A stretch of 64,000 nt of DNA, taken from the NCBI RefSeq assembly GCF_010993745.1, contig NZ_WOTN01000001.1, positions 1,181,235 through 1,245,234 on the forward strand. The letters are read 5' to 3'. The notes under the pieces were generated by a model. That model was not told the origin of the DNA. It searched no databases and saw only the letters and a list, made by a program, of their open reading frames with translations. This DNA comes from Fodinicola acaciae (GTDB taxonomy: Bacteria; Actinomycetota; Actinomycetes; Mycobacteriales; HKI-0501). The translations under genes were made by a program, and so were the position numbers. Positions 5,381 to 20,692 of this stretch are shown here, piece after piece (within the stretch, counting starts at the first letter, position 1; every line of letters starts with the position of its first letter).

Positions 5381-5591
5381 GATTCAGCCGACGTCGACGA
5401 GAAATCGATTTCCGACTGACGATACGCTGGTCTTTGCGTGTCGTCAATGGGATGTCGCGGGTCGCGACCAGTTCCGGTTTTAGCGGTAACAGAGTCTTTG
5501 ACGTCCGGGATTTCGGCCGCACACTCTAGATGAAATTTCCCTGGTCCGGTGGTGGACCTCTGCTCTGGAGTGCGTCGGAAGGAGCTCGTTG

Positions 5592-7268
5592 ATGGGATGG
5601 TCCCAGCGGCTTCGCGCGGGTGTCCGGCTCCTGGCCGCCGTCGCGAGTGTGACGATCGCGACCGCGGTCGGGCTGGTCGCCGTAACAGCGTCGTCACCAG
5701 CGTTCGCAACCTCGCAGGCCGATATCGTGAACCTCGCCAACGCCAACCTTGGTGGCATGGCCTGCGCCACGAACAGCCTGGGTGGAGGCGGGTTTTACAG
5801 CAGTTGCACAGGAAATGCCGGCCAGCCCGAATACTGGTGTGCCGACTTCGCGAAATGGGTCTGGGCCAACGCCGGAGTCGCGGATCTCGGCGGACTGACG
5901 CCGGCCGCGCGTAGTTTCTACACCTACGGTGTGGCTCGTGGCATTCTGACCGGCACGCCGGCTCTTGGTGACGCGGTTGTCTTTTCCAACAACCAAGGCG
6001 ACACCTCCTCCGGCGGTGGCGGCATCCACCACGTCGCGATCGTCACCGCGGTGAATGCCAACGGAACGATCGAGACGGTAAGCGGCGACTGGGGCGGCGA
6101 AAGCGGCAGCGAGGCGCATTTCGCCGGCACGTCGCACGTCATTCACAACACTCCCGCATACGGGTCAGGCGTCGGCACGTACTCGAGCGTGATGCGCATG
6201 TGGATCGAGGGTTACATCCCAGCGCCAGGTGTCACGGGGTTGAGCGACGCCGGTCACCATTTGGTGGTGGGGTCGTCGGCGGATGGTCGGATGGAGGTTT
6301 TTGCTGGTACGGGGTCGGGTGTGTGGCATGCGTATCAGACGGCTGCCGATGGTCCGTGGTCGGATTGGGAGAATATCGGTGGTCCGGCGAATGCGGCGTT
6401 GGCGATCGCCGCGGTGCCGGATGGCCGGTTGGAATTGTTTGCGTTGAACAGTCAGGCGTTCTGGCACACGTACCAGACGGCGCCGTCGGGGTCGTGGGCT
6501 TCGTGGGAGTCCAACTTTGGTGGTGGTGGCTATGACGTTGCTGTCGGTCGTAACAAGTCTGGTCGGCTGGAAGTGGTTGCCAGCAATGGTGGCGGTGTTT
6601 ACCACAAGTACCAGAACACGGACTTGAGCTGGTCAGGCTGGGGATCGCTGACGGGTCCCAATGGGGGAGGCGCCAACGGTAATGCGCATTTGGCGGCGGC
6701 GAGTTCGGCTGATGGTCGTATTGAGATTTTCGCGATGAATGATCAGAGTTTCTTCCACACTTACCAGACCGCGGCCGATGGTGGTTGGGCGAACTGGGAG
6801 AGCGATTTCGGTGGTGGCGGGTCGTATTTGGCGGTTGGTACGAACAAGTCCGGTCGCCTGGAGGTCGCGGCCAGTAACGGCGGTGGTATCTACCACAAAT
6901 ACCAGAACACCGACTTGAGCTGGTCAGGTTGGGGATCGCTGGTCGGACCGGATGGGGTTGGTGGCAACGGAAACGCCAAGCTCGCCACCGAGCGGTCCCC
7001 GGACGGGCGTATCGAACTCTTCGCCGTGAACAGCCAGGTTTTCGATCACATCTACCAGACCGCCACCGACGGCAACTGGTCGAACTGGGAAACCAACTTC
7101 GGCGGAGGCGGCAGCGACGTAGCCGTCGGCCACAACAAAACCGGACGACTGGAAGTCGTTGCCAGCAACGGTGGCGGCATCTACCACAAATACCAGAACA
7201 CCGACCTCACCTGGTCCAGCTGGTCCTCACTGGTCGGACCCAACGGCACCGGCGCACCCGGCATCTAA
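5592..7268 (+). CDS. Secreted CHAP-domain cell-wall hydrolase with seven-bladed propeller
   Basis: The 558-residue protein begins with a signal peptide (about 1-39, ending SSPAFA). Residues 42-200 form a CHAP-like domain, with the expected cysteine in YWCADFAKW (Cys83) and histidine in HHVAIV (His147); such domains cut peptidoglycan as amidases or endopeptidases. From residue 221 there are seven repeats of about 48 residues, with DGR.E.F..N / HTYQTA or SGRLEV.ASNGGG / YHKYQN motifs, resembling PLL-type fucose-binding lectin propellers. ATG 5592 has GGAAGGAG at 5577-5584. The next gene carries the same propeller behind a different catalytic domain. The 210 bp upstream shows no recognised riboswitch. 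Confidence 0.8.
   Translation: MGWSQRLRAGVRLLAAVASVTIATAVGLVAVTASSPAFATSQADIVNLANANLGGMACATNSLGGGGFYSSCTGNAGQPEYWCADFAKWVWANAGVADLGGLTPAARSFYTYGVARGILTGTPALGDAVVFSNNQGDTSSGGGGIHHVAIVTAVNANGTIETVSGDWGGESGSEAHFAGTSHVIHNTPAYGSGVGTYSSVMRMWIEGYIPAPGVTGLSDAGHHLVVGSSADGRMEVFAGTGSGVWHAYQTAADGPWSDWENIGGPANAALAIAAVPDGRLELFALNSQAFWHTYQTAPSGSWASWESNFGGGGYDVAVGRNKSGRLEVVASNGGGVYHKYQNTDLSWSGWGSLTGPNGGGANGNAHLAAASSADGRIEIFAMNDQSFFHTYQTAADGGWANWESDFGGGGSYLAVGTNKSGRLEVAASNGGGIYHKYQNTDLSWSGWGSLVGPDGVGGNGNAKLATERSPDGRIELFAVNSQVFDHIYQTATDGNWSNWETNFGGGGSDVAVGHNKTGRLEVVASNGGGIYHKYQNTDLTWSSWSSLVGPNGTGAPGI
6252..7264 (+). repeat. First copy of a 1-kb near-identical direct repeat (propeller module)
   Basis: Bases 6252-7264 recur at 7867-8879, offset by 1615 bp. 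Only two nearby differences were noticed by eye (near 7150 against 8765) and they are silent. The repeat encodes the entire seven-bladed propeller and nothing of the catalytic domains, which points to a recent module copy or gene conversion. Confidence 0.9.
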
Positions 7269-7278
7269 GGAGAGACAC

Positions 7279-8883
7279 GTGAGGACATTGACCAGATCCA
7301 TGCGGTCGCTCGCGGCCGTCGCAATGATCCTGCTGGCCGTCGCCGGTGTCATGGTGGCCTCGCCGGCGTACGCCGCGACATTGCCTTGCGACCCGGCCGG
7401 CGTGCAGTCGATCGACGCGGAGCTGGCGGCACAGCTGAGCCCGCAGCTGAACGGACGGATGCGCGGCGGCCTGACGGCCTACCGGATGTCGTGTGCTCGA
7501 GTGGTGACCCAAACCGTACGCGGCCGCGGTTTCTCCGCACGGGCGGCGGCGATCGCGATCACCACGATCATCGTCGAGTCCACCATGGACAACCTGACCA
7601 CCGGAGACGGATCGAGCGTCGGCCTCTACCAGCAGACCGCGTCGTCCTATCCCAACATCAATCGCAACGACCCGGTCGCGGCGACGAACGCCTTTCTCAA
7701 CGAGATGATACGTGTCTATCCCAACAACAGTTGGGAGACCGCTCCGATCGGGGACGTGTGCGCCAACGTCCAGCGGCCGGCGCAACAGTACAGATATCGC
7801 TACGCGCTCGAGGCGCACGATGGCACGTTGATCGCGGACGCATACTGGCAGGGCCAGGTGTCGACGGGTCACCATTTGGTGGTGGGGTCGTCGGCGGATG
7901 GTCGGATGGAGGTTTTTGCTGGTACGGGGTCGGGTGTGTGGCATGCGTATCAGACGGCTGCCGATGGTCCGTGGTCGGATTGGGAGAATATCGGTGGTCC
8001 GGCGAATGCGGCGTTGGCGATCGCCGCGGTGCCGGATGGCCGGTTGGAATTGTTTGCGTTGAACAGTCAGGCGTTCTGGCACACGTACCAGACGGCGCCG
8101 TCGGGGTCGTGGGCTTCGTGGGAGTCCAACTTTGGTGGTGGTGGCTATGACGTTGCTGTCGGTCGTAACAAGTCTGGTCGGCTGGAAGTGGTTGCCAGCA
8201 ATGGTGGCGGTGTTTACCACAAGTACCAGAACACGGACTTGAGCTGGTCAGGCTGGGGATCGCTGACGGGTCCCAATGGGGGAGGCGCCAACGGTAATGC
8301 GCATTTGGCGGCGGCGAGTTCGGCTGATGGTCGTATTGAGATTTTCGCGATGAATGATCAGAGTTTCTTCCACACTTACCAGACCGCGGCCGATGGTGGT
8401 TGGGCGAACTGGGAGAGCGATTTCGGTGGTGGCGGGTCGTATTTGGCGGTTGGTACGAACAAGTCCGGTCGCCTGGAGGTCGCGGCCAGTAACGGCGGTG
8501 GTATCTACCACAAATACCAGAACACCGACTTGAGCTGGTCAGGTTGGGGATCGCTGGTCGGACCGGATGGGGTTGGTGGCAACGGAAACGCCAAGCTCGC
8601 CACCGAGCGGTCCCCGGACGGGCGTATCGAACTCTTCGCCGTGAACAGCCAGGTTTTCGATCACATCTACCAGACCGCCACCGACGGCAACTGGTCGAAC
8701 TGGGAAACCAACTTCGGCGGAGGCGGCAGCGACGTAGCCGTCGGCCACAACAAAACCGGACGACTGGAAGTGGTCGCCAGCAACGGTGGCGGCATCTACC
8801 ACAAATACCAGAACACCGACCTCACCTGGTCCAGCTGGTCCTCACTGGTCGGACCCAACGGCACCGGCGCACCCGGCATTTAG
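7279..8883 (+). CDS. Secreted lysozyme-like protein with the same seven-bladed propeller
   Basis: The 534-residue protein starts at GTG 7279, 10 bases after the upstream stop, with AAGGAGAG at 7267-7274. A signal peptide (about 1-32, ending SPAYA) precedes a helical domain (about 34-195) resembling lysozyme/transglycosylase-like peptidoglycan hydrolases, with a candidate catalytic Glu100 in TTIIVESTMDN and the GLYQQ motif; four cysteines are present. Residues 197-534 are the propeller, identical in translation to the CHAP protein. The two genes form an operon and would deliver two different peptidoglycan-cutting activities with the same sugar-binding or wall-binding module. Enzyme type is inferred from fold-level resemblance. 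Confidence 0.75.
   Translation: MRTLTRSMRSLAAVAMILLAVAGVMVASPAYAATLPCDPAGVQSIDAELAAQLSPQLNGRMRGGLTAYRMSCARVVTQTVRGRGFSARAAAIAITTIIVESTMDNLTTGDGSSVGLYQQTASSYPNINRNDPVAATNAFLNEMIRVYPNNSWETAPIGDVCANVQRPAQQYRYRYALEAHDGTLIADAYWQGQVSTGHHLVVGSSADGRMEVFAGTGSGVWHAYQTAADGPWSDWENIGGPANAALAIAAVPDGRLELFALNSQAFWHTYQTAPSGSWASWESNFGGGGYDVAVGRNKSGRLEVVASNGGGVYHKYQNTDLSWSGWGSLTGPNGGGANGNAHLAAASSADGRIEIFAMNDQSFFHTYQTAADGGWANWESDFGGGGSYLAVGTNKSGRLEVAASNGGGIYHKYQNTDLSWSGWGSLVGPDGVGGNGNAKLATERSPDGRIELFAVNSQVFDHIYQTATDGNWSNWETNFGGGGSDVAVGHNKTGRLEVVASNGGGIYHKYQNTDLTWSSWSSLVGPNGTGAPGI
7867..8879 (+). repeat. Second copy of the 1-kb direct repeat (propeller module)
   Basis: This is the partner of 6252-7264. Identity begins at GGTCACCATTT, immediately after the unrelated linker of the lysozyme-like gene, and ends within the last codons. 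Both copies change composition part-way: the first two thirds use many T-ending and TTG/GGT codons, while the last third is C-rich like the surrounding genes. Confidence 0.9.
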
Positions 8884-8940: not shown

Positions 8941-10134
8941 TCAAGGAGCGATTGACCAGCTCTGCAGATAGCCGGTGTCGACCCGCGACACGTCGGTGAG
9001 TTCGAGCTGCCAGCTGCCGGCGGCCTGGATCGTCGAGGCGTTGACGGCGTACGTGACGTCCAGGTTGACGCGGCCGTCGCTCTCGTCGGGATTCTTGAGC
9101 ACACTGGAAAATCCGCCGGGTCCGTGCAGCGCGATGCGCAGGTCGCCGACGAAACTGTGCTTGACGTGTACGGTCACGGTCGTACGGCTGGAGGCGGCTC
9201 TGGCGCACATTGGCAGGTCGATCGTGCTGGACACGGGTTGACCGGGACCGGCGGCGGTCGCGTCCGGGATGGCCAGTTGGCTGTCGTTGGCCTTCTGGCA
9301 CACCGGTTTGAGCAGCTGGGCGGCGAAAACCGCGCCGAACGCGTTCGGCAGGTTGAGGGTGCCGGCGGTCTCGGCATAGCGGCCGTGGATGGGATTGTTC
9401 AGGATGTTGACGAGCTGGTTGAGGTTGCTGATCGGCGGATAGCTGCCGCTTTCCCACGGCTCGTCCAGAAGCGGCGCCGGCGCGTCGCAGATTCCGTCGC
9501 CATACAGGCAAAGTTCGGTCGTGCGGCCCTGGGCGTCGGCTGGCACCGGCAGCCGCAGGAGCGCACCGGCTCCGTACGGTGCGACGACCTGACCGGTCAA
9601 CAGATCGACGTAGGTGCTGTAGATCGACCCACCGATGCTGAACGGGTTTGCCAGCAACAGCACCGATCCGACCGCGTTCCGCTCGGTCGCGGTCAGCTGC
9701 GAAAGCGCCAACTGGATGACCATCGAACCCTGCGAATAGCCGATCAGACCGATACGTTCCTGTGGACACTGCGCGATTCTGCTGCGGATCAGGTGATAGA
9801 GGTCGTCGCCGCCGTTGCTGGCGGAGTTGACGAAGTTGGTCCAGTTGAAGTCCGGCAGGTCACCGTTGATCCCGGCCGCCGGATAGGGGAGCGAATAGTA
9901 GCCGGTGTTGGCCGGCAGGAGAATCGACGCGGCCTGCGCGTACGCGCCGACCCGTGCGGCCATGCCGTTCCAGCCGTCCATGCCCTCGCCGCTGCCGCGC
10001 ACGCCGACGACCAGATACGGTCCGCACGGCGGCGGAGCCGGATCGGCGGCGGCTGGCCGCGCGGCGGCTGGCACGACGATCAGCACGACGGACAGGCAGA
10101 TCAGGATGGCACGTCGCAGGCGTTTCATGGTCAT
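8941..10134 (-). CDS. Secreted cutinase-family esterase with C-terminal P-domain-like region
   Basis: The 397-residue protein has a signal peptide (about 1-31), a cutinase domain (about 35-270) and a beta-rich C-terminal region (about 285-397) resembling the P-domain of proprotein convertases and bacterial subtilases. Cutinase marks are GYSQGS with Ser134, Asp217 in GDGICD and His250 in NPIHGRY. Cutinases hydrolyse esters of cutin, lipids or cell-envelope acyl chains; actinobacterial members often act on lipids. The start ATG 10134 overlaps the upstream stop as TGATG, so translation is coupled to the geranylgeranyl reductase fusion. It is the last gene of the five-gene operon and its only product with a classic Sec signal. 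Confidence 0.85.
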   Translation of the reverse strand: MTMKRLRRAILICLSVVLIVVPAAARPAAADPAPPPCGPYLVVGVRGSGEGMDGWNGMAARVGAYAQAASILLPANTGYYSLPYPAAGINGDLPDFNWTNFVNSASNGGDDLYHLIRSRIAQCPQERIGLIGYSQGSMVIQLALSQLTATERNAVGSVLLLANPFSIGGSIYSTYVDLLTGQVVAPYGAGALLRLPVPADAQGRTTELCLYGDGICDAPAPLLDEPWESGSYPPISNLNQLVNILNNPIHGRYAETAGTLNLPNAFGAVFAAQLLKPVCQKANDSQLAIPDATAAGPGQPVSSTIDLPMCARAASSRTTVTVHVKHSFVGDLRIALHGPGGFSSVLKNPDESDGRVNLDVTYAVNASTIQAAGSWQLELTDVSRVDTGYLQSWSIAP

Positions 10135-12095
10135 CACCGTTTTCGCTCGGTCAGGTCGGCGCGGACCGTGGCGGCGAAGGCTCGCAGGATGCCGGCCGGA
10201 CGTTCCGGCAGCCCGGCGAGCTGGTCGAGCGCACGGTCGTACGCCTTGGTCATGGCTGTCTCGACGGCCCGGCCGGCAGCTGTGCGGAGTTCGTCGCCGG
10301 CGAGTGCGGCCGCGGTGAGGTGCTGGTTGCCCAGCAGGTCCGGAAAACTGGAGATCCGGTCGGTGAGCAGACCGGCGAGGTCGGTGTCCAGCCGGTTCGG
10401 CTTTCCCCGCAACGCGGCCAGATCCTCGGCGAACAGGAAGGCCCGGCCGCATTCGTATCCGTACTCGCGCAGTGTCTTCGCGGCCTCCGATGGCACCTCG
10501 GCGAGCTCGGCGCCGATCCGGCACGGAAACTCGAAGAGCGAACCGAAAAGCTCGACCGCAGCCGCGTCGTCCGCGCGATCCAGCTGCCTGGTACGCAGCG
10601 CGATCAGCTCTGTCAACCATTCCGCGAACGACCACGAAAACCGCGGTCCGCCGGCGCCGGCGACGAGTTTTGCCGCGACGGCGATGAGAAAGTCGCCGGC
10701 AAGCACTCTGGTGGCGCAGGCCCAGTCGACGCCGCGCGCCGGCCGGCGCGGATCGGCCGGCGCGCCGATGAAGGCCAGCATGGCGAGGCTGGCGAGCTCG
10801 ATGCCGGCCGCGATCGCGGCGGCGTTGGCTGGCGGCGGTCCGCCAGCGCACAGTGTGGCGGCCAGGAACGGCACCGCCGGCCGCAGCTGTTCGCCTTCGC
10901 TGGCGGCGAAAAGCCGCGCGAGAAACGGCCACTCGGTCCGGACAGCCGCGATCTGGATCGCGTCGCAGTTGGCGAGGAATGCCTTGACCAGCAACGAATC
11001 CGCGGCAGGAACGGCAATCCGGTGCCGGCCGCTCAACCGGTCGAGCCCTTCCGGCAGGATCAGCGCACGACGCGCTTTGGTGAAGAAGGTGCCATCGGTG
11101 TGCAGGGTGGCACCGAGCGCCCGCCAGGCCAGGTGATAGCGGCGGCTGGTGTGCCGTGCGGTCTCGAAATATCCGACGTACGCCGCCGTCGTCCGCCGCC
11201 GGTATTCCGCGGCGGCCGCGATCGGATCGTCGGGATGGTCGGCGATGCAGGTGGCCGCTGTCGCGCCACTTTGTGTGGCATAGCTGATGCCTTCGCCAGT
11301 GAACGGATTTGTCAGGCCGGCGGCACCGCCGACCAGCAGTTGTCCATTGTGGACACAGGTGTCCGGGCTGAAGGACGCGTTGACCGGTGCCGATACGACC
11401 GGTCCGATTGGCTCCGCCGAGTCGAAACGCGGATCGGCGTCGCGGATCTCGGCAAGCGTGGCATGGAAAAGGTCGACCGGACGGTGCAATGCGGTGACTG
11501 TCACCGTGCACATGCCGTCCGGTCCGGGCACAATCCGCGCACACGCCATCCGGCCGGTGGTGTCGGTGACGGCCGGCGTGCTGAAATGCAGTGCCGTGCC
11601 GGATCCGAGGTCGACGCCGCGCATCCGCTGGCTGACCGCGATGCCAGGAGGACACACGTGAGCCGCGCCGGTGGCGATCACGACATGACGTGCGTCGACG
11701 GCGAAAACCTCGCCAGCCGCGGCGCGTACGCGCAACCGCTGGTCGACGCGACCGTCGATTTTGGTCGCACCGCTGGCAATCGCGGCCGCCAGCAGCTGCT
11801 CACGGAACGACCGCCAGTCGTACGCGTAGAGGTCGGGTGCGGACAGCGTTCGCCGGCGCTGCGCGCCAAACACCAGCTCGAGGTCGTCGAGGCGGCGCGC
11901 CGCCGAGGTCGACGCACCAGACATCACAAATGCGGCGCCGCTGATCGTCACGTCGTAGTTGGCCGGCGCTCCGTCGTCCACGAGCAGGACGCTCAGGCCA
12001 CGCTGGCTCAGCGTACGAGCGGCTGTCGAGCCGGCCGGTCCGCCGCCGGCAACCAGGACGTCGACCGATCGCCCGGTCACGTCAGCCCGCGCCAT
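10134..12095 (-). CDS. Geranylgeranyl reductase fused to a degenerate polyprenyl synthase domain
   Basis: Residues 10-370 match geranylgeranyl reductase-family flavoproteins: the dinucleotide motif GGGPAG (17-22) and a second FAD motif GGAAGLTNPFTGEGI (about 256-270). Such enzymes reduce double bonds of prenyl chains. Residues about 395-600 read as an isoprenyl diphosphate synthase fold: GEQLRP (401-406) replaces GKxLRP, LASLAMLAFIGAP replaces the segment with the first DDxxD, VLAGDFL is kept, and AFLFAEDLA stands where the second DDxxD should be. The synthase half should therefore be catalytically dead. Start ATG 12095 overlaps the upstream gene by 19 bp; GTG 12080, forming a GTGA overlap, is equally plausible. 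It sits directly after an intact synthase. Confidence 0.82.
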   Translation of the reverse strand: MARADVTGRSVDVLVAGGGPAGSTAARTLSQRGLSVLLVDDGAPANYDVTISGAAFVMSGASTSAARRLDDLELVFGAQRRRTLSAPDLYAYDWRSFREQLLAAAIASGATKIDGRVDQRLRVRAAAGEVFAVDARHVVIATGAAHVCPPGIAVSQRMRGVDLGSGTALHFSTPAVTDTTGRMACARIVPGPDGMCTVTVTALHRPVDLFHATLAEIRDADPRFDSAEPIGPVVSAPVNASFSPDTCVHNGQLLVGGAAGLTNPFTGEGISYATQSGATAATCIADHPDDPIAAAAEYRRRTTAAYVGYFETARHTSRRYHLAWRALGATLHTDGTFFTKARRALILPEGLDRLSGRHRIAVPAADSLLVKAFLANCDAIQIAAVRTEWPFLARLFAASEGEQLRPAVPFLAATLCAGGPPPANAAAIAAGIELASLAMLAFIGAPADPRRPARGVDWACATRVLAGDFLIAVAAKLVAGAGGPRFSWSFAEWLTELIALRTRQLDRADDAAAVELFGSLFEFPCRIGAELAEVPSEAAKTLREYGYECGRAFLFAEDLAALRGKPNRLDTDLAGLLTDRISSFPDLLGNQHLTAAALAGDELRTAAGRAVETAMTKAYDRALDQLAGLPERPAGILRAFAATVRADLTERKR

Positions 12096-12994
12096 TCCAG
12101 CCGCACCACCTCGGCCAACCGGTCGCGCAGGTCCGGATCGGAGAGGCGGTCGAGTTGGTCCAGCGCGGCCCGATGACCGGCGTCGGCCATCACCGTGGCC
12201 GCTCGCAGACCGCCGAGCGAGTCGACCATTGCGCGTACGCCTGGAAGAGAGTCGACGTCGAAGTGCGGATCCAGCAGGAGCGCGGCCAACCGGCCGGATC
12301 GATCCGCGCGCAGCGCGCACAGTGTCGGCGCGCCGAAAAGTCCGAGCAGGTGGTCGGTGCCGGCCGACTTGTCATTGTCCAGGCGAAAATCCAGGGTGTC
12401 GTCGAGGATCTGGAAAGCCGCTCCGAGCCGGAGGCCGAACATGGCCAGGATCGCGATCTGGTCGGCCGGCTGGCCACCGGCCAGACCGCCGAGCTGGCAG
12501 CTGAGCCGGAACAGCTCGCCGGTCTTGTGCCTGATCAGCTCGTCGTAGTCGGCCGGTGAGAAGTCCACGTCGAAGGCACGCTCGACATCGAGCAACTCAC
12601 CGTGCGCGAGATTTGCCATCGCACTGCTGAAAATCTCGTTGACCTGGTCGCCGAGGTCGGCCGCTTCGCGTGCGGCCAGGCCGAAAACCGCCAGCCCGGC
12701 GAGCAGCGCCAGCTCCTCGCCGACAACGGTGTACGCGGCCGGACGCCGCCGCCGGACGGGTGCGCGGTCGACCACGTCGTCGTGCAACAGAGACGCGAGA
12801 TGCACCAGCTCCACCACCGTCGCGGCGCGTACGACGGCCTCCTGGTCGACTGGACCTGCGCAGGCCTGGAGCAGCGTACGCCGCAGCCCTTTTCCCTGTC
12901 TGCTCGCCAAATCCTGGACGACCTGGCGGGCCGGTTGGGCCAGCTCACCGGCGAGCCGGTCGATCCGGTCCGACACCAGGGTCGCGAACGTCAT
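12077..12994 (-). CDS. Polyprenyl diphosphate synthase
   Basis: The 305-residue protein carries all catalytic motifs of trans-isoprenyl diphosphate synthases: GKGLRR (34-39), the first aspartate-rich motif in LLHDDVVDRA (DDVVD 72-76), the KT pair in RHKTGELF, and the second aspartate-rich motif in AFQILDDTLDF (198-202). It should condense isopentenyl diphosphate with an allylic diphosphate, using magnesium. Chain length cannot be set with confidence; the residues before the first motif (VHLASLL) are not bulky aromatics, which allows longer products. It lies 2 bp after the protease gene and overlaps the reductase fusion, so synthesis and reduction of a prenyl chain are probably one pathway. 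Confidence 0.92.
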   Translation of the reverse strand: MTFATLVSDRIDRLAGELAQPARQVVQDLASRQGKGLRRTLLQACAGPVDQEAVVRAATVVELVHLASLLHDDVVDRAPVRRRRPAAYTVVGEELALLAGLAVFGLAAREAADLGDQVNEIFSSAMANLAHGELLDVERAFDVDFSPADYDELIRHKTGELFRLSCQLGGLAGGQPADQIAILAMFGLRLGAAFQILDDTLDFRLDNDKSAGTDHLLGLFGAPTLCALRADRSGRLAALLLDPHFDVDSLPGVRAMVDSLGGLRAATVMADAGHRAALDQLDRLSDPDLRDRLAEVVRLEWRGLT

Positions 12995-12996
12995 CG

Positions 12997-14574
12997 TCAG
13001 AATGCCTCGGCGGGCGAGTGCAGCACGATGTCCGGGTCGGCGGCGAGGATCGAATAGACCTTCCGATAGGTCGCCATGTCGTCCAGATATGCCAGCACCT
13101 GCCGGTAGTTCATCCCGATCGCCGGCCGCAGCACTTCGACGACCAGGGCCCTGGCCGCCGTCGTCTGGGCCGGTGTCGCGCGCAGTTGGATCCCGGTCAG
13201 GGCGGTGACGGCGTCGTTGTAATGCGCCTCGGTGATGACGTATTCAGGACTGTCCGGATTGTTGAGCGCGGACTCCAGAAAGTCGCGGTATTTGTCATAA
13301 AGCGAGTTGGCGTAGGACTTCTCGTTGTCGCTCGCCTCGACTCCCTCGGTCTTCGACCGGATCTGCGCCTCGTTGAGGTAGATCACCTCGATCATCAGCC
13401 GGCCGACCCGGGTCAGCGCGAAGAACTCGTCACGGATCCGGTCGGCGAACTCCGCGGTGGCAGTTGCCGGCAGGTCATACATGTCCGGGACCACCGGAAA
13501 CATGAAGCAACCCGCGACCAGCGTGTAGACCGGCCGGTTGGCGTTTCCTCCGGCGCAGACCACCGAGCCGGAGTCGCCGGACCACCCGAAGTTGGCGATG
13601 TAGTGCACGTTGGTCATGTACATGGCCGGCGGCACACCGGGGATTCCTTCGGTGCCGACCGCCACGGTGAAGTCCAGGCCGCTGATCTTGTTGGCCGTGT
13701 AGGCGGTCGTACGGCCAACCTTGTCGACGTTCATGTCCAGTTGCGCGGTGGCGACCGCGTTGCTGGCCAGCAACTCCACGTTGAGCGCGTTGAGCGTGCG
13801 CGCCATGTCGGTAATGAAGATGCCGCCGTAGGAGTCACCGGCGAACAACACGCCGACCGCCGGATGCGAGCTGGAGATCGGTGGCATCAGTCCGCCGTAG
13901 ATCCCCTTGCTCACCAGCGATTCGTCGACGACCTGCGCGATGCCGCCGTCCACGTTGCCAGGTGCCTGCGGATCGAAGCTGAGCGGCACGAACCGCTTCA
14001 GCCGCGCGATCGTGTTGTTGTCGTCCAAACCGCCGTCGCCGGGCTGGATGATGTGCTGGCCGACCCGGCCGAGGTTGAGGTTGGCGACCACGTGGTTGCA
14101 GGACAGCAGGCAGATCGTCTGGTCGGTCCGATCCCTGACCAGGCAACCGAAAGTGCCGATGCCGAAACCGTCGAGGTTGGCGATGCCGGTGCCTTCGGTG
14201 GCCGGTCTGACCTTCTGCCAGATCGGCATCGGCACCCGCCAGTTCTGGCCGTCGGGGTCCAGCACGCGCAGCTGGTCGGTGCCTTCCGGACGCTGCACGC
14301 TGAAGGGCCCGGCCTCGATGACGTCGACGCCGTACGTCTGACCGGAAATGCTCACCTGGCGCGGCAGCAGGCGCGACCGTGCGACCAGGTTTTGCGGCCT
14401 TTTCTTCGCCACCATCGCGATGACCACCGGTTCGTCGGTGGTTTCGCCGTTCTGCTGGCGATATCCGAGACCGAAGGCGGTGCAGTTGGGATCGGCGCCA
14501 AACCTCGCGCGCAGGCCGTCGCGGCCCTGGCGCAGCGTGGCGCGATGCGCGCGGTCGAACTCCTGCTGGTTCAT
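12997..14574 (-). CDS. Trypsin-like serine protease without signal peptide
   Basis: The 525-residue protein has a chymotrypsin-fold triad in order: His161 in LSCNHVVAN, Asp209 in GNVDGGIAQ and Ser335 in GWSGDSGSVV. The architecture (an N-terminal cap, the protease core, and a helical C-terminal region of about 150 residues) resembles bacterial relatives of the NAL1-type trypsin-like proteases. No Sec or Tat signal is seen, so it should act in the cytoplasm, or leave by another route. It overlaps the upstream Tat-protein gene as ATGA and precedes the polyprenyl synthase by 2 bp, placing it in the prenyl operon. Its substrate is unknown; a neighbouring operon product is an obvious candidate. 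Confidence 0.8.
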   Translation of the reverse strand: MNQQEFDRAHRATLRQGRDGLRARFGADPNCTAFGLGYRQQNGETTDEPVVIAMVAKKRPQNLVARSRLLPRQVSISGQTYGVDVIEAGPFSVQRPEGTDQLRVLDPDGQNWRVPMPIWQKVRPATEGTGIANLDGFGIGTFGCLVRDRTDQTICLLSCNHVVANLNLGRVGQHIIQPGDGGLDDNNTIARLKRFVPLSFDPQAPGNVDGGIAQVVDESLVSKGIYGGLMPPISSSHPAVGVLFAGDSYGGIFITDMARTLNALNVELLASNAVATAQLDMNVDKVGRTTAYTANKISGLDFTVAVGTEGIPGVPPAMYMTNVHYIANFGWSGDSGSVVCAGGNANRPVYTLVAGCFMFPVVPDMYDLPATATAEFADRIRDEFFALTRVGRLMIEVIYLNEAQIRSKTEGVEASDNEKSYANSLYDKYRDFLESALNNPDSPEYVITEAHYNDAVTALTGIQLRATPAQTTAARALVVEVLRPAIGMNYRQVLAYLDDMATYRKVYSILAADPDIVLHSPAEAF

Positions 14575-15101
14575 CGGTGCACCCTTGCCTTGGTGGAAGC
14601 GGAAAGGCGTGCGATCGCGGCCAGCCAGACCTTGGCCAGATCATCGGCGGTCGGCTTGACCTGGCGGGTCACCGTCGCCGCGGCGAGTGCGACCAGTGCG
14701 ATCAGCCCGTCGGTCTTGTCCGGCTCGACCGCTCGCTTGCCGATCGCGGCAAGCATCGTGGCGTCATCGCCGTCCACGAGGCCTTCCTGCAGCAACGAGT
14801 CGGCGGCAGCGCGTACGAGCGCCAGTCGCTGCTCAGGCAGTCCGGCGACCGCGCCAGCCAACCGATCGGCGGTCGCACGGCTCATGGCCGGTCCTGACTC
14901 GCCGAAATCCGGCAGCGGCGCCGGCACTCGCGCGCCGAACGCCGCCACCCGCAACACCATGCGGGTTTGTCGTTCGTCCAATGGCAAATCCGCCGCCTGC
15001 GCGGACTCGCCGGTGGCCAGTACGGCGCCGGAGGCGAGTGCACCGGAGACGGTGAGGAAGGTCCGGCGAGAAAGCTCGCCGCCGGATACGGGGTCGGCCA
15101 C
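14571..15101 (-). CDS. Tat-exported helical protein of unknown function
   Basis: No family is recognised. From GTG 15101, which has AAAGGCGAG shortly upstream, the product is 176 residues. A twin-arginine signal (SRRTFLTVSGALASG, cleavage after ESAQA) is followed by about 135 residues that are predicted helical and rich in Ala, Leu and Arg, with no cysteines. A longer frame back to 15182 exists but adds a basic region with no signal-like character. It is the first gene of the five-gene operon and overlaps the protease by 4 bp. Being folded before export and paired with a protease, it could be a substrate, scaffold or envelope-side partner; this is inference. Confidence 0.6.
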   Translation of the reverse strand: MADPVSGGELSRRTFLTVSGALASGAVLATGESAQAADLPLDERQTRMVLRVAAFGARVPAPLPDFGESGPAMSRATADRLAGAVAGLPEQRLALVRAAADSLLQEGLVDGDDATMLAAIGKRAVEPDKTDGLIALVALAAATVTRQVKPTADDLAKVWLAAIARLSASTKARVHR

Positions 15102-15365
15102 GCCGCTCGCCTTTCGTCGCGGATGACACGCGAAAAATCGCTGTCGGCGGCTGACTCTAAGATCCACATCATCGTGCGTCAAGCAGACTTTTACTTGTAT
15201 GGTCGAAATGTAGCGTTACAGATCCTGACCGCAAGCGGTCGACTGCCTGGCGCAGGAAAGCTGTTTTCGGCAACCGGACCTTGCCCCAGGACGGGCCGCG
15301 CGTGGTCGGCCGCGCCCGACCTTCGTATGATGCGGCAGTCGTCGGGTGAGAGGTGCGGGGACGCC

Positions 15366-17105
15366 GTGCGTGCTGGTCAGATGGTGGCCGACCGATATCG
15401 GTTGGTCGAGCAACTCGGCGCCGGTGGCAATGGCGTTGTGTGGCGAGCAAATGACCGGCGCCTGCGCCGTGACGTGGCCCTGAAACGCGCCGGATTCGGC
15501 GGCGACCGGCAGGTCGAGCTGTTGCGCCGCGAGGGGATTGTCGCGGCCGGGTTTCACCATCCGAACGTGGTGACGTTGCTGGACGTGCTGGCCGACGGCG
15601 ACGAGCTGTGGCTGGTCATGGAGTACGTGCCGGCGCGCAGCCTCGCCGAGCTGCTGGCCGACGACGGGACCGTGGACGCGCAGGTCGCCATTGCGATCGG
15701 CGTACAGGTCGCGCGCGCGTTGGAAGCCGTGCACGCCAAAGGTGTTGTGCATCGAGACATCAAGCCGAGCAACATTCTGGTGGCGGCGGACCGTACGGTG
15801 AAGGTGACGGATTTCGGCGTCTCGCGAGCGGTGTGGAGCGAGCCGACGCTGACCGGTGACGCGCTCGTTGTCGGCACTCCTGGCTATCTGGCGCCGGAAG
15901 TGGCGCGCGGCGAACGGGTCACGGCGGCCGCGGATATCTTTTCGCTCGGCGCGACTTTGTACGCGGCGGTCGAGGGATCGGTGCCATACGTACCGGCCGA
16001 CACCCCGCAGGAGGCCCTGCGATCGGTCTGCGAGCAGGACATGCGGCCCACGCGCCGCGCCGGACCGCTGGGTGACGTGCTCGTGCAACTGCTGGCGCGC
16101 GACGTGGCCAAGCGTCCGGACGCGGCCCGTACACGGCAACTTTTGGAGGCTCTGCAAGGCATCGAGCCGCCGGTCGCACCGAAGCCACGACGACGGCGGC
16201 TGGCACTGATCGGCGCCGCGGCCGCCGTCGCTGTGGCGACGGTGGCCGGCGGCACGGCGTACGCGCTCACCCGCCATCCCACGCAGCAGGCCACAGCCGT
16301 CGGCGATCCGCACACCGCTGATCCGTGCGGCCTGGTGCAGCCGGCGGGTCTGAGCCGCTTTGGCCGGACCGAGCTGCGGACGGCGTACGGCGGCTTCGAG
16401 CGGTGTGACGTGCTGGTCCGGCCGGAAACCGCCGACGAAACCGATGTCGAGGTGGCCTTCGCGGCGCCGAGCGGCGGGATGCGACCGGCCGGACGGTTGC
16501 CGGTGCTGCGTCCGCCGCCGGACAGCGATGGCTGCGGCCGTACGATCCTGCTCGCCGACGCCGACGTGGAGATCATCGCCAAGCAAAACGCTCAACAGCA
16601 GCGCCGCGACTATTGCCAGCTGGCCGATGCCGCGACCAGTTTCGCGCTCGGCAAGCTCGCGACCGGCGTGCCGCGCCGCACCGCGACGTATCCGCGAGAC
16701 TCGCTCTTCTACCTGAAGGCGTGCTCATTGCTCAACGGGTCGGCCTTGGCGCGCCTGCCCGGCGTGGACGCGGGCGATCCAGACGCCGGTTTCGCCGGCT
16801 GGCAGTGCCGGTGGCACAGCATCACCGACGACGTCTACCTCGACGTGGCGTTCGACCGTAACCTGCCGCTGACCAGCACGGACGGCAAGGTGAGCCGGAT
16901 GTCCGGCCGGGAGGTGTACGTCGCGGCCACGGAGGACTCCTGCCGAGCGCGCGTCGCCTACCGCGAGTTTCGCGACGAGCGCGGTGAGCGGCTGGTCGAG
17001 CTGGTGAAGGTGACGCTGGCCGGCAGGCTCGGCTCGGGTGAGCGGCTGTGTCCGCTGGTCACCGACCTGACCCGCGCGTTGGTCCAGCAGCTACCGGCCA
17101 GTTAG
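15366..17105 (+). CDS. Membrane Ser/Thr protein kinase with Cys-rich sensor domain
   Basis: The 579-residue protein is a PknB-type receptor kinase. Residues 10-265 hold the glycine loop GAGGNG, Lys40 in VALK, the HRDIKPSN catalytic loop (Asp131, Asn136), DFG (149-151) and the APE motif. A membrane segment follows (about 279-301). The outer domain of about 275 residues has at least six cysteines and no PASTA repeats, so it probably senses something other than muropeptides through PASTA. GTG 15366 gives the typical MRAGQMVADRY start. It is divergent from the prenyl operon across 264 bp that hold both promoters, and 36 bp upstream of an FHA-domain gene, its likely phospho-binding partner. Confidence 0.9.
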   Translation: MRAGQMVADRYRLVEQLGAGGNGVVWRANDRRLRRDVALKRAGFGGDRQVELLRREGIVAAGFHHPNVVTLLDVLADGDELWLVMEYVPARSLAELLADDGTVDAQVAIAIGVQVARALEAVHAKGVVHRDIKPSNILVAADRTVKVTDFGVSRAVWSEPTLTGDALVVGTPGYLAPEVARGERVTAAADIFSLGATLYAAVEGSVPYVPADTPQEALRSVCEQDMRPTRRAGPLGDVLVQLLARDVAKRPDAARTRQLLEALQGIEPPVAPKPRRRRLALIGAAAAVAVATVAGGTAYALTRHPTQQATAVGDPHTADPCGLVQPAGLSRFGRTELRTAYGGFERCDVLVRPETADETDVEVAFAAPSGGMRPAGRLPVLRPPPDSDGCGRTILLADADVEIIAKQNAQQQRRDYCQLADAATSFALGKLATGVPRRTATYPRDSLFYLKACSLLNGSALARLPGVDAGDPDAGFAGWQCRWHSITDDVYLDVAFDRNLPLTSTDGKVSRMSGREVYVAATEDSCRARVAYREFRDERGERLVELVKVTLAGRLGSGERLCPLVTDLTRALVQQLPAS

Positions 17106-17141
17106 TGCCCGTCTCGTGCGGTTTTGGCGTTCAATAGCGGT

Positions 17142-17918
17142 ATGAGCCCGACCGCGCAGACGAGCCGACGGCGCAGCCTGGCGTACGCCGTGGTGGCGCC
17201 GCCGGACCGGCCCGGCACGTTGCGTGCGCTCACAGTCGCCAGCGACTACCAGGTCGGTCCCTTCGAGGGCCGCCAGGTCATCTTCGGCCGCAACCGCGAG
17301 GCCGTACACGTGTGCGTCGGCGAGGACGACCGCCGGGTCAGCCGCGCGCACGGCCGGCTGACCTGGCGGCGCGGCCAGTGGTGGCTGGAAAACACCGGGC
17401 GGCAGCCGATGCGGTTGCCGGACGGCTGGCTGCTGTTTCCCGGCGAGGACCCGTTTCCGTTGCCGGCCGGTTATACGCCGCTGTTCGTTGCCGGCTCGGG
17501 AAGCCGTGAGCATCTGCTGGAGATCTTCGTGACCGGCGAGGATGGTGCGCGACCGGTGGCCAAGCCGTCGGACGCGACGATCCCGCCGGAGGTCTATTGG
17601 CTGTCGGAAAAGGAAAGGCTCGTGCTGGTCGTACTGGGCCAACGCTATCTGCAGCACCACAGCCGGCCGCAGCCGCTGACGCGTCAGCAGGTCGCCGGCC
17701 AGCTCGCCGAGCTGCAGCCGGAGGCCGGCTGGAACGACAAAATGGTGGAGCGGGTCATCGCTCCGGTGCGTGAACGGCTCTCGCGCGCCGGCGTACGGGG
17801 ACTGACGCGAGAGGAAGTCGGAGAGCCGGTTGGCAACGCGCTCAACGACAACCTGCTGCGCGCGCTGATGGAGTCGACCGCGCTCGTACCACCTGATCTC
17901 GCATTGCTCGATCATTAG
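17142..17918 (+). CDS. FHA-domain protein
   Basis: The 258-residue protein has an FHA domain (about residues 25-110) with the phosphothreonine-binding marks GRN (49-51) and SRAH (67-70). The C-terminal part (about 140-258) is helical with a winged-helix feel (LSEKERLVLVVLGQRYL and a following helix-turn-helix-like region), so it may link phospho-peptide binding to another contact; no named family is recognised for that part. It follows the membrane kinase by 36 bp on the same strand. Such kinase-FHA pairs are common in actinobacteria and the FHA protein is usually a substrate or adaptor of the kinase. It is predicted cytoplasmic, with no signal or membrane segment. Confidence 0.82.
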   Translation: MSPTAQTSRRRSLAYAVVAPPDRPGTLRALTVASDYQVGPFEGRQVIFGRNREAVHVCVGEDDRRVSRAHGRLTWRRGQWWLENTGRQPMRLPDGWLLFPGEDPFPLPAGYTPLFVAGSGSREHLLEIFVTGEDGARPVAKPSDATIPPEVYWLSEKERLVLVVLGQRYLQHHSRPQPLTRQQVAGQLAELQPEAGWNDKMVERVIAPVRERLSRAGVRGLTREEVGEPVGNALNDNLLRALMESTALVPPDLALLDH

Positions 17919-19390: not shown

Positions 19391-20692
19391 TTGGCTGGTG
19401 ACGGAAACTGGGATCGGCGTTCGGTGCTACGAGGTGCGGCGGTGTTGGCTGGCGCGACCGTGCCATTCTTCGGTGGCGCGGCTGTTGCCGAGCCAGGCAG
19501 CAACGCGGATGCGTTGTTCGCGGCCGGGAAGTTCGAGCAGGCTGGCCGCGCGTACGAGGAGATCCTGAGAAAGGAGCCCGAAAACCTGCGCGCGGCCCGC
19601 CAGCGCGGCTATGTCGGCCTGCTGTCCAACAGGTTCACCGAGGCCGAGAAGTATTTCAAGGTGGCGCTGCGCCTGGCGCCCGCGGACAAGGAAACCAACT
19701 GGCTGCTTGGCGACTGCTACATCCGGCAGGACAAGTTCGCGCTTTCCGTGCCGTGCTGGCAGGCCGCCGGCGAGGAGGCGTACGCGACCTGGTTCGCGGC
19801 GGTTCGCGGCAATCCGTACGAGATCCATGGTGACACCGGCCGCGTACCGTTTCTGCGGATGGACCCGTCGGTGCAGGTGCAGGCATCGGTCAACGGCGGG
19901 CCGTTGAAGCGTTTTTCCTTCTATACCGGCGCGCCGTGGTTGGGGGTCTCCGCCGCGGTGGCCAAGGAGGCCGGCCTGAAGTCGGTGTACAAGCAGAAGA
20001 CCGAGTTTGAGAACGGCTTCGTGTGGATGTATTTCGGCATGCTGGACTCGTTCAAGATCGGCGGCATCGAAGTGCGCAACGTCCCGGTGGGCTGGTCGGA
20101 GCCGGCCGGTGCAGACGTGCCTCCGCAGACCGACGACGGGCTCATCGGGACGTGGTTCTTCTACCATCTGTTGACCACTTTCGACTACGCCGGCCGGTCG
20201 CTGATCCTGCGGCGACGGACCTCCGAAGCGGCCAGGAAGGCCCGTGCAGGCAGCAAACCGCTGCCGATGTGGCTCGCCCTCGAGCACTACGTTCACAGTC
20301 AAGGAAGCTTCGCCGGCAGCACCGACTCCGGTCCGCGAGTGGTCGGCGTGAACTTGGGCGGCAACAGTGAGATCATCGCCGGTTTGCGCGGAAAAACCGC
20401 GGAGCAGTTGGGAATACGGAGCGACTACGACCGCGAGATCGGCACGTTTGGCTCGAGCCATCCGGCTGTCGTCTATCCCTGCTATCCGAACGAGGTGCGG
20501 CTCGGCGACGCGGTCGCCAAGGGCGTCTACTGCTACAACAACCCCAACCAGAAGCCCAACGTGCCATGGCCGTACGGGACTGGGTTCGACACGATCGGCT
20601 GGTTTTCGCACTGCTTCTGGAAACCGTACAACGTCACGCTCGACTTCACCGAGATGCGCCTCTACATCGCGCGCGGCAAGGCAACCGGCTAG
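19391..20692 (+). CDS. Tat-exported TPR protein with catalytically degenerate retropepsin-like domains
   Basis: The 433-residue protein has a Tat signal (DRRSVLRGAAVLAG, cleaved near AAVA), a TPR block (about 38-130), and a C-terminal part with two lobes that read like retropepsin aspartic proteases. In lobe one the expected DTGA is YTGA (178-181), followed by LGVSAAVAKEAGL and the GLIGTWFF stretch. In lobe two the expected DTGAN is NLGGN (321-325), followed by SEIIAG. Both catalytic aspartates are therefore absent (Tyr178, Asn321), so binding rather than cleavage is likely. The TTG start at 19391 follows GGGAGAG. Outside the cell it could bind a peptide or wall component. Confidence 0.6.
   Translation: MAGDGNWDRRSVLRGAAVLAGATVPFFGGAAVAEPGSNADALFAAGKFEQAGRAYEEILRKEPENLRAARQRGYVGLLSNRFTEAEKYFKVALRLAPADKETNWLLGDCYIRQDKFALSVPCWQAAGEEAYATWFAAVRGNPYEIHGDTGRVPFLRMDPSVQVQASVNGGPLKRFSFYTGAPWLGVSAAVAKEAGLKSVYKQKTEFENGFVWMYFGMLDSFKIGGIEVRNVPVGWSEPAGADVPPQTDDGLIGTWFFYHLLTTFDYAGRSLILRRRTSEAARKARAGSKPLPMWLALEHYVHSQGSFAGSTDSGPRVVGVNLGGNSEIIAGLRGKTAEQLGIRSDYDREIGTFGSSHPAVVYPCYPNEVRLGDAVAKGVYCYNNPNQKPNVPWPYGTGFDTIGWFSHCFWKPYNVTLDFTEMRLYIARGKATG

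Follow-up and report, generated by a model that had tools for sequence, protein, structure and literature searches.

A conserved bacterial gene cassette joins a live prenyl diphosphate synthase to a catalytically dead, flavoprotein-fused partner in a likely heteromeric enzyme

Background

What does a prenyl synthase domain do once it has lost its catalytic motifs, has become fused to a flavoprotein, and is encoded beside a synthase that has kept them? The question arises from a locus of Fodinicola acaciae, present within a stretch of 64,000 nucleotides (the window; contig NZ_WOTN01000001.1, positions 1,181,235 to 1,245,234), in which a geranylgeranyl reductase (GGR)-type flavoprotein and a degenerate trans-prenyl synthase share one reading frame. 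The original prediction, made from the DNA sequence, held that the fused synthase half may dock to the live synthase next door and pass the nascent chain straight to the reductase, making a saturated polyprenyl product.

Prenyl synthases with unlike subunits are known. HexA/HexB of Micrococcus luteus and HepS/HepT of Bacillus subtilis are heterodimeric hexaprenyl and heptaprenyl diphosphate synthases, respectively, and the small subunit of the mint GPPS (SSU/LSU) is without DDxxD motifs (from the available part of PMC7839719). In rice, GRP-GGPPS1 heterodimers recruit GGR (from the available part of PMC9863795).

Architecture and fold of the fusion

The fusion ORF encodes 653 aa on the reverse strand, from an ATG at 12095 to a stop at 10134. 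Its start codon lies inside the synthase gene (12077-12994), and the two genes overlap by 19 nt. Residues 1-367 (10995..12095, reverse strand) form the flavoprotein half, of likely GGR descent, and residues 368-653 plus the stop (10134..10994, reverse strand) form the catalytically dead trans-prenyl-synthase half; sequence and family matches agree that the two halves follow each other in this order within one ORF, as had been read from the letters. The flavoprotein half scores above the cut-offs of several general FAD families and matches the GGR family TIGR02032 over residues 12-284 at 77 bits, below the cut-off of 158.8. The C half scores 25.3 bits with PF00348 (cut-off 27), or 28.7 bits with neighbours in the whole-genome scan.

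Searches against solved structures place the C half among the prenyl synthases. A single-sequence search of the PDB (phmmer) finds a nonaprenyl diphosphate synthase at E 3.4e-8, and a profile of seven fused halves reaches a best E of 8.7e-23 and 62 distinct solved sequences at E <= 1e-5; among the best 60 of the 62 listed, all carry prenyl-synthase names except two rice chains, which have locus names only. The best of five AlphaFold models of the fusion, built from 10 sequences, has a pLDDT of 79.0 (the other four, 69-71) and a pTM of 0.75. In this model, residues 360-647 superpose on the E. coli octaprenyl-PP synthase (3wjo_B) with Z 25.3 and 3.0 A over 268 residues, and the closest solved fold for the N-terminal part is the GGR-like 3oz2 (Z 30.4, 3.1 A, 322 residues). 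The fold check that had been set in advance thus found a prenyl synthase in the C half both by profile and by model, and the prediction of a complete prenyl-synthase fold there is solid.

Distribution and gene order

An initial scan of contigs with the whole fusion as query gave no match. The cassette is now represented by 16 loci, the window included: four in Amycolatopsis, two in Nonomuraea, and others in Prauserella, Actinomadura, Streptosporangium, a plasmid of Rhodococcus oxybenzonivorans and elsewhere, among them L046 (Amycolatopsis family), the near-identical L047-L049 (another family) and L079 (a further family). L079 was reached via its peptidase and the remaining loci via the fusion or the window itself. 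Because their contigs are equally long, L083, L086 and L089 were treated as identical with L043, L045 and L044, respectively. Counting the window's own genome and the clearly separated cases among the matches listed, the cassette is present in at least 8 of 397 sampled genomes of the window's order and in at least 2 of 394 of its class. No cassette match was obtained in the two relatives from the window's family, one of which has a genome of only 74% completeness.

The side-by-side occurrence of fusion and synthase that the docking idea called for holds across genomes: each of the 16 loci has the live synthase as the immediate upstream neighbour of the fusion, encoded on the same strand. Upstream of the synthase there is in every case a serine peptidase, of the NARROW LEAF 1 (NAL1)/trypsin type in 15 loci and a subtilase in one. 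When all ORFs of 15 cassette loci and of L080 were compared, the genes that recur across lineages were those of the cassette; beyond them, matches are few, scattered and weak, and the flanking genes vary from lineage to lineage. Since the Rhodococcus copy lies on a plasmid and is surrounded by transposase genes, transfer of the cassette is suggested. None of the cassette genes was recognised as encoding a prenyltransferase that would consume the product.

Several genes around the cassettes deserve mention in their own right. Directly downstream of the window's cassette, 8944-10128 (reverse strand) encodes a cutinase domain with a proprotein-convertase P-domain, and a subtilase with a P-domain is encoded near the L046 cassette. 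Divergent from the window's cassette, 15300-17918 (forward strand) encodes a Ser/Thr kinase along with a protein of weak FHA resemblance, neither of which has a match in the other loci compared. Upstream of their cassettes, the three near-identical loci share a gene for a PKD-domain protein of 1257 aa (L047:14019-17792, reverse strand). Elsewhere in the window, the adjoining forward-strand ORFs 5589-7268 and 7159-8883, one with a CHAP domain, are nearly identical over more than 300 C-terminal residues, probably through recent duplication, and 19391-20692 (forward strand) encodes TPR repeats with a retropepsin-like aspartyl protease domain.

The fused half has lost its motifs and is conserved

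In the window, GEQLRP, LAMLAFIGAP and AFLFAEDLA do lie where the original prediction had placed them, at the sites of GKxLRP and of the first and second Asp-rich motifs; by alignment, the second site comprises E557 D558 ... A561 (10413..10427, reverse strand). The alignment also indicates that, besides the residues of both Asp-rich motifs, those of GK, KT, FQ and GK..GTD are gone. The loss is general. Fifteen loci were compared, L048 being omitted here and in the other 15-locus comparisons because it nearly duplicates L047 and L049. In all 15 fused halves the first motif is without its DD, the second site has no DDxxD, and GKxxR has lost its Lys but kept its Arg. The fused half of Rhodococcus is the closest to intact, with DExxD at the second motif, and on this sequence its total inactivity appears less plain than that of the others.

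For the dead half, dN/dS is 0.10-0.33 in 7/7 close pairs, which come from three groups; this is similar to the 0.11-0.27 of the GGR half in the close pairs; judged by these ratios, it is under purifying selection. That the fused half is a decaying pseudo-domain without function would agree with the absence of its catalytic residues, but is scarcely credible against losses that run in parallel in 15/15 sequences, low dN/dS, and residues newly conserved among the dead halves, such as WPF. Decay of a duplicated gene was rejected on the 15 parallel sequences together with the dN/dS values.

The live synthase and reciprocal loss

The neighbouring gene (12077..12994, reverse strand) encodes a trans-prenyl diphosphate synthase of 305 aa that scores 165.8 bits with PF00348 (cut-off 27). 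The description of this gene as intact stands: both Asp-rich motifs, HDDVVD and LDDTLD, are found. Both DDxxD motifs are likewise intact in all 15 live cassette synthases, and neither is present in any of the 15 fused halves. The top NCBIfam match of the live synthase is NF041169, a polyprenyl transferase that is a Family 2 encapsulin cargo; at 143.6 bits, against a cut-off of 450, a role as such cargo was rejected.

The live synthases have themselves lost something. Helix E is at the dimer face of trans-prenyl synthases, and the Asp of its GD motif is present in 31/31 ordinary synthases and in 15/15 dead halves (Asp468 in the window by alignment; 10692..10694, reverse strand) and in 0/15 live cassette synthases, which have Leu (10) or Thr (5) instead (Leu101 in the window by alignment; 12692..12694, reverse strand). 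The Leu two residues further on is present in 28/31 ordinary synthases and 15/15 dead halves, compared with 3/15 live ones. Among the positions at least 85% conserved in the ordinary set, to which the rule was restricted, these two columns are the only ones lost in the live and kept in the dead domains. Four distinct solved relatives among the alignments listed also have Asp at the helix-E site. The ordinary set began with 36 loci, five of which were removed by a filter for a GK-x-x-R-type motif and DDxxD; the presence of these motifs in 31/31 is therefore by construction, and the helix-E Asp is outside the filter. As a criterion, this Asp stands for conservation in the set compared rather than for a curated family rule.

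Each subunit has thus lost what the other keeps, and because these losses of conserved positions are reciprocal, the simplest reading of the sequences is that the working enzyme would be a heteromer. It is this observation that strengthens the heteromer part of the original prediction.

Trees and distance correlations

A tree of 61 domains separates the 15 live cassette synthases from the remainder at one branch (97/89) and the 15 dead halves at another (100/97). Live and dead domains alike contain the same clade I of 11 rows (window, Amycolatopsis, Prauserella, L046, Actinomadura, Nonomuraea, Streptosporangium) and a clade II core of three rows (L047, L049 and L079). The placement of Rhodococcus is unsure: its live row falls with clade I (94/84, no star) and its dead row at the base. 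Its fusion is 38-43% identical to those of clade II versus 32-35% to those of clade I, and for the flavoprotein half it is counted as clade II.

Over 14 loci, the distances of dead and live domains show the highest correlation of six pairs (r 0.974; partial 0.895; 0/2000 permutations as high). Within the 11 loci of clade I, the dead-live partial correlation is 0.215 (290/2000 as high, not significant), lower than the 0.647 between GGR and dead halves, and in a thinned clade I of seven loci the dead-live value is 0.632 (15/2000). The high 14-locus value thus rests largely on the split between the clades, and the distance correlations give mixed support for a dead-live pairing. The pairing of live and dead domains is old and has been maintained.

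Chemistry of the flavoprotein half

The flavoprotein halves resemble the GGR family (TIGR02032; 3oz2; the Sulfolobus GGR 3atq) in fold and in FAD motifs, with the GxGxxG motif and the PFTGxG region present in 15/15 aligned sequences (PFTGEG in the window). At the GDAAG motif, the window has GG, Rhodococcus GA and the other 13 rows GD. Two further marks of GGRs are KxCG and YxWxFP. KxCG is present in 4/4 rows of clade II and in 0/11 of clade I, and hence is absent in the window; an exact YxWxFP occurs only in L047 and L049 among the 15, and the window is without it. Similarly, three clade II fusions are over the TIGR02032 cut-off of 158.8 (195.5, 202.0 and 164.2 bits), whereas the two clade I fusions scanned, at 77.0 bits (window) and 78.2 bits, are under it. 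In a GGR scan of the window's genome, the fused half (77.6 bits) is on par with generic flavoproteins (78.5 and 75.3 bits), and a separate locus reaches 245.8 bits.

Since the fusions of clades I and II have a common architecture and align at about 29-36% identity, the clade I flavoprotein half has likely descended from a GGR. Whether it still carries out a reduction is, from its sequence, less sure, and because the GGR mark is absent and the cut-off is missed, the chemistry may have shifted in the window's clade. The "saturated polyprenyl" part of the original prediction is weakened accordingly for the window, which has no KxCG and 77 bits where 158.8 are called for. An alternative, then, is that the heteromer forms and that the clade I flavoprotein does other flavin chemistry, such as a cyclisation, a hydroxylation or a non-redox step, with no reduction of the chain. 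The clade difference in KxCG and in TIGR02032 scores speaks for this, as does the Pfam lycopene cyclase family, with which the window's flavoprotein half scores 27.9 bits (cut-off 23.4). However, the nearest solved fold is still the GGR-like 3oz2, and the PFTGxG region is kept throughout; on balance we regard this alternative as rather unlikely.

A further alternative would uncouple the two synthases. The dead half could be a self-dimerising lipid-binding or scaffold domain and the flavoenzyme could act on another prenyl lipid, for example a quinone, with the live synthase a mere supplier. The menaquinone reductase MenJ is among the top family matches of the clade II fusions, at 154.4, 164.2 and 108.9 bits, far under its cut-off of 700. 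However, loss of the helix-E Asp from 15/15 live synthases is unexpected for ordinary homodimers, the adjacency of fusion and live synthase is strict, and the sporadic occurrence of the cassette, together with the separate high-scoring GGR of the window's genome, argues against a part in basic quinone metabolism; this account seems clearly doubtful. Saturation of menaquinone as a basic function is disfavoured on the same two grounds of distribution and separate GGR.

The peptidase and the small exported protein

Two genes upstream of the synthase extend the unit beyond the pair named in the original prediction. Two nt from the synthase gene, 12997..14574 (reverse strand) encodes a trypsin-fold peptidase of the NARROW LEAF 1 type, 525 aa in length. 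A profile of this family (A2) matches rice NAL1 structures (7y77 and others) at E 3.9e-20, and the presumed triad, H161/D209/S335 in the window, is His-Asp-Ser in 14/14 aligned peptidases and in L048 too. With the NAL1_N domain (cut-off 27), the window's peptidase scores below the cut-off at 22.3 bits and three cassette relatives over it at 32.0-41.6 bits. The cassette peptidases are thus like rice NAL1 in profile and in trypsin triad; unlike it, they come from bacteria, and their genes are linked to those of a prenyl synthase and a flavoprotein.

As a control, 21 NAL1-type genes outside cassettes were considered, namely 20 of the 26 weaker matches plus L080. A synthase is present in one of these 21 stretches (L129, about 2.5 kb from the peptidase), and this synthase shares 51% identity with an ordinary one in the window's genome; a GGR is found in 0/21 at E <= 1e-6 with four GGR queries, one of them a wrong reading frame. 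With one synthase and no GGR around these 21 peptidases, the link is specific to the cassette type. L080 itself (9446-10465, reverse strand) encodes a NAL1-type peptidase that is shortened yet close to those of the cassettes (E 6e-70); its stretch has no synthase or GGR, and the gene is either a stand-alone form or a remnant.

The next gene upstream in the window (14571..15182, reverse strand) overlaps the peptidase gene by 4 nt and encodes a small helical protein of at most 203 aa, its start codon being uncertain, that carries a twin-arginine-like signal. It scores 17.5 bits with TAT_signal, under the cut-off of 22.7; its AF2 model is confident only past residue 64, and no fold match was found in the PDB at E <= 0.001. 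Small helical exported proteins of this kind are present in 7/16 loci, and the RR is invariant in the six rows of their alignment (A5). At the same place, the four Amycolatopsis loci encode another protein, which also begins with a twin-arginine-like sequence; L047-L049 and L079 yielded no homologue of either. In Rhodococcus, where the subtilase stands in place of the NAL1-type peptidase, one small gene lies between subtilase and synthase (L012:9853-10305, forward strand). Its 150-aa product, which by eye we presume to resemble an SCP2 lipid carrier, has no Pfam match at E <= 10.

With a serine peptidase in all 16 cassettes, the cassette could be viewed as a conflict or signalling unit centred on the peptidase, with the latter as effector and the prenyl enzymes as makers of its anchor or of a signal. 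The plasmid setting of the Rhodococcus copy among transposases and the sporadic spread would fit. Against this, the four window proteins match no PADLOC model at E <= 0.01, neither a sensor nor an effector-associated domain was recognised, and the letters "prenyl" do not occur in one paper on such systems (PMC8195603); we therefore hold such a unit to be very unlikely. The PADLOC result likewise led to rejection of a known defence system for the window. The Rhodococcus subtilase does match the PADLOC subtilase and IetS models.

A proposed heteromeric enzyme and its relatives

The preferred reading, to which we give a probability of roughly 0.6, is that the two genes encode one heteromeric prenyl-diphosphate synthase, comprising a live catalyst of 305 aa and an obligate inactive fused subunit with an attached GGR-type flavoenzyme that most likely reduces the chain. 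An obligate heteromer is proposed because of the reciprocal loss, the parallel trees and the purifying selection; taken separately, a heteromeric enzyme is likely and a reduced product plausible. The 305-aa protein would perform catalysis. The fused C half would be its obligate non-catalytic subunit, providing the second face of the dimer usual for such synthases and perhaps contributing part of the cavity that sets chain length. The covalently attached flavoenzyme would then act on the nascent or the finished chain, most likely reducing double bonds. The NAL1-type peptidase is part of this unit too, as is the small exported protein in many cassettes; their role would probably lie in regulation or in how the lipid is finally used.

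This arrangement has partial precedents. As in HexA/HexB and HepS/HepT, where a catalytic subunit with two Asp-rich motifs is joined by a partner thought to set chain length (from the available part of PMC7839719), a catalytic and a motif-less subunit of synthase fold are linked, here in 16/16 loci. Unlike in those enzymes, the inactive partner is a recognisable homologue of long-chain synthases and is fused to a flavoenzyme. The live partner, moreover, is without the helix-E Asp found in the 31 ordinary synthases compared. The plant GGPPS small subunits (SSU-I, SSU-II/GRP) are likewise inactive and synthase-like and unite a synthase with GGR (from the available part of PMC9863795), and by analogy the fusion would be the covalent, bacterial counterpart of these GGR-recruiting subunits. 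Their CxxxC motif was not seen, by eye, in the window's dead half.

The cassette is real and conserved, and it likely represents a variant of the heteromeric prenyl synthases to which a flavoenzyme is attached and a peptidase is linked. A more far-reaching proposal, which we consider unlikely and offer tentatively, is a self-contained, horizontally moving lipid cassette. Its two synthase halves, each lacking what the other has, would form one obligate enzyme that, with the attached flavoenzyme, makes a lipid for, or released by, the NAL1-type peptidase and the exported protein; this would be a new peptidase-coupled system of prenyl-lipid modification.

Significance

It was already known that inactive subunits steer prenyl synthases and that in rice one such subunit recruits GGR. 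Here, the proposed recruiter and the flavoenzyme are one chain, and the live synthase is without a residue that its inactive partner has kept. A search of the literature by GGR and prenyl-synthase terms found no description of the combination. The finding raises the question of why a serine peptidase, mostly of a type known from the genetics of rice leaf and yield, is present in every locus found. The cassette also suggests a built-in assembly line in which long isoprenoid lipids would be made and then modified, and it provides a compact system for studying how a pseudoenzyme can complete an enzyme and how chain length is coupled to saturation.
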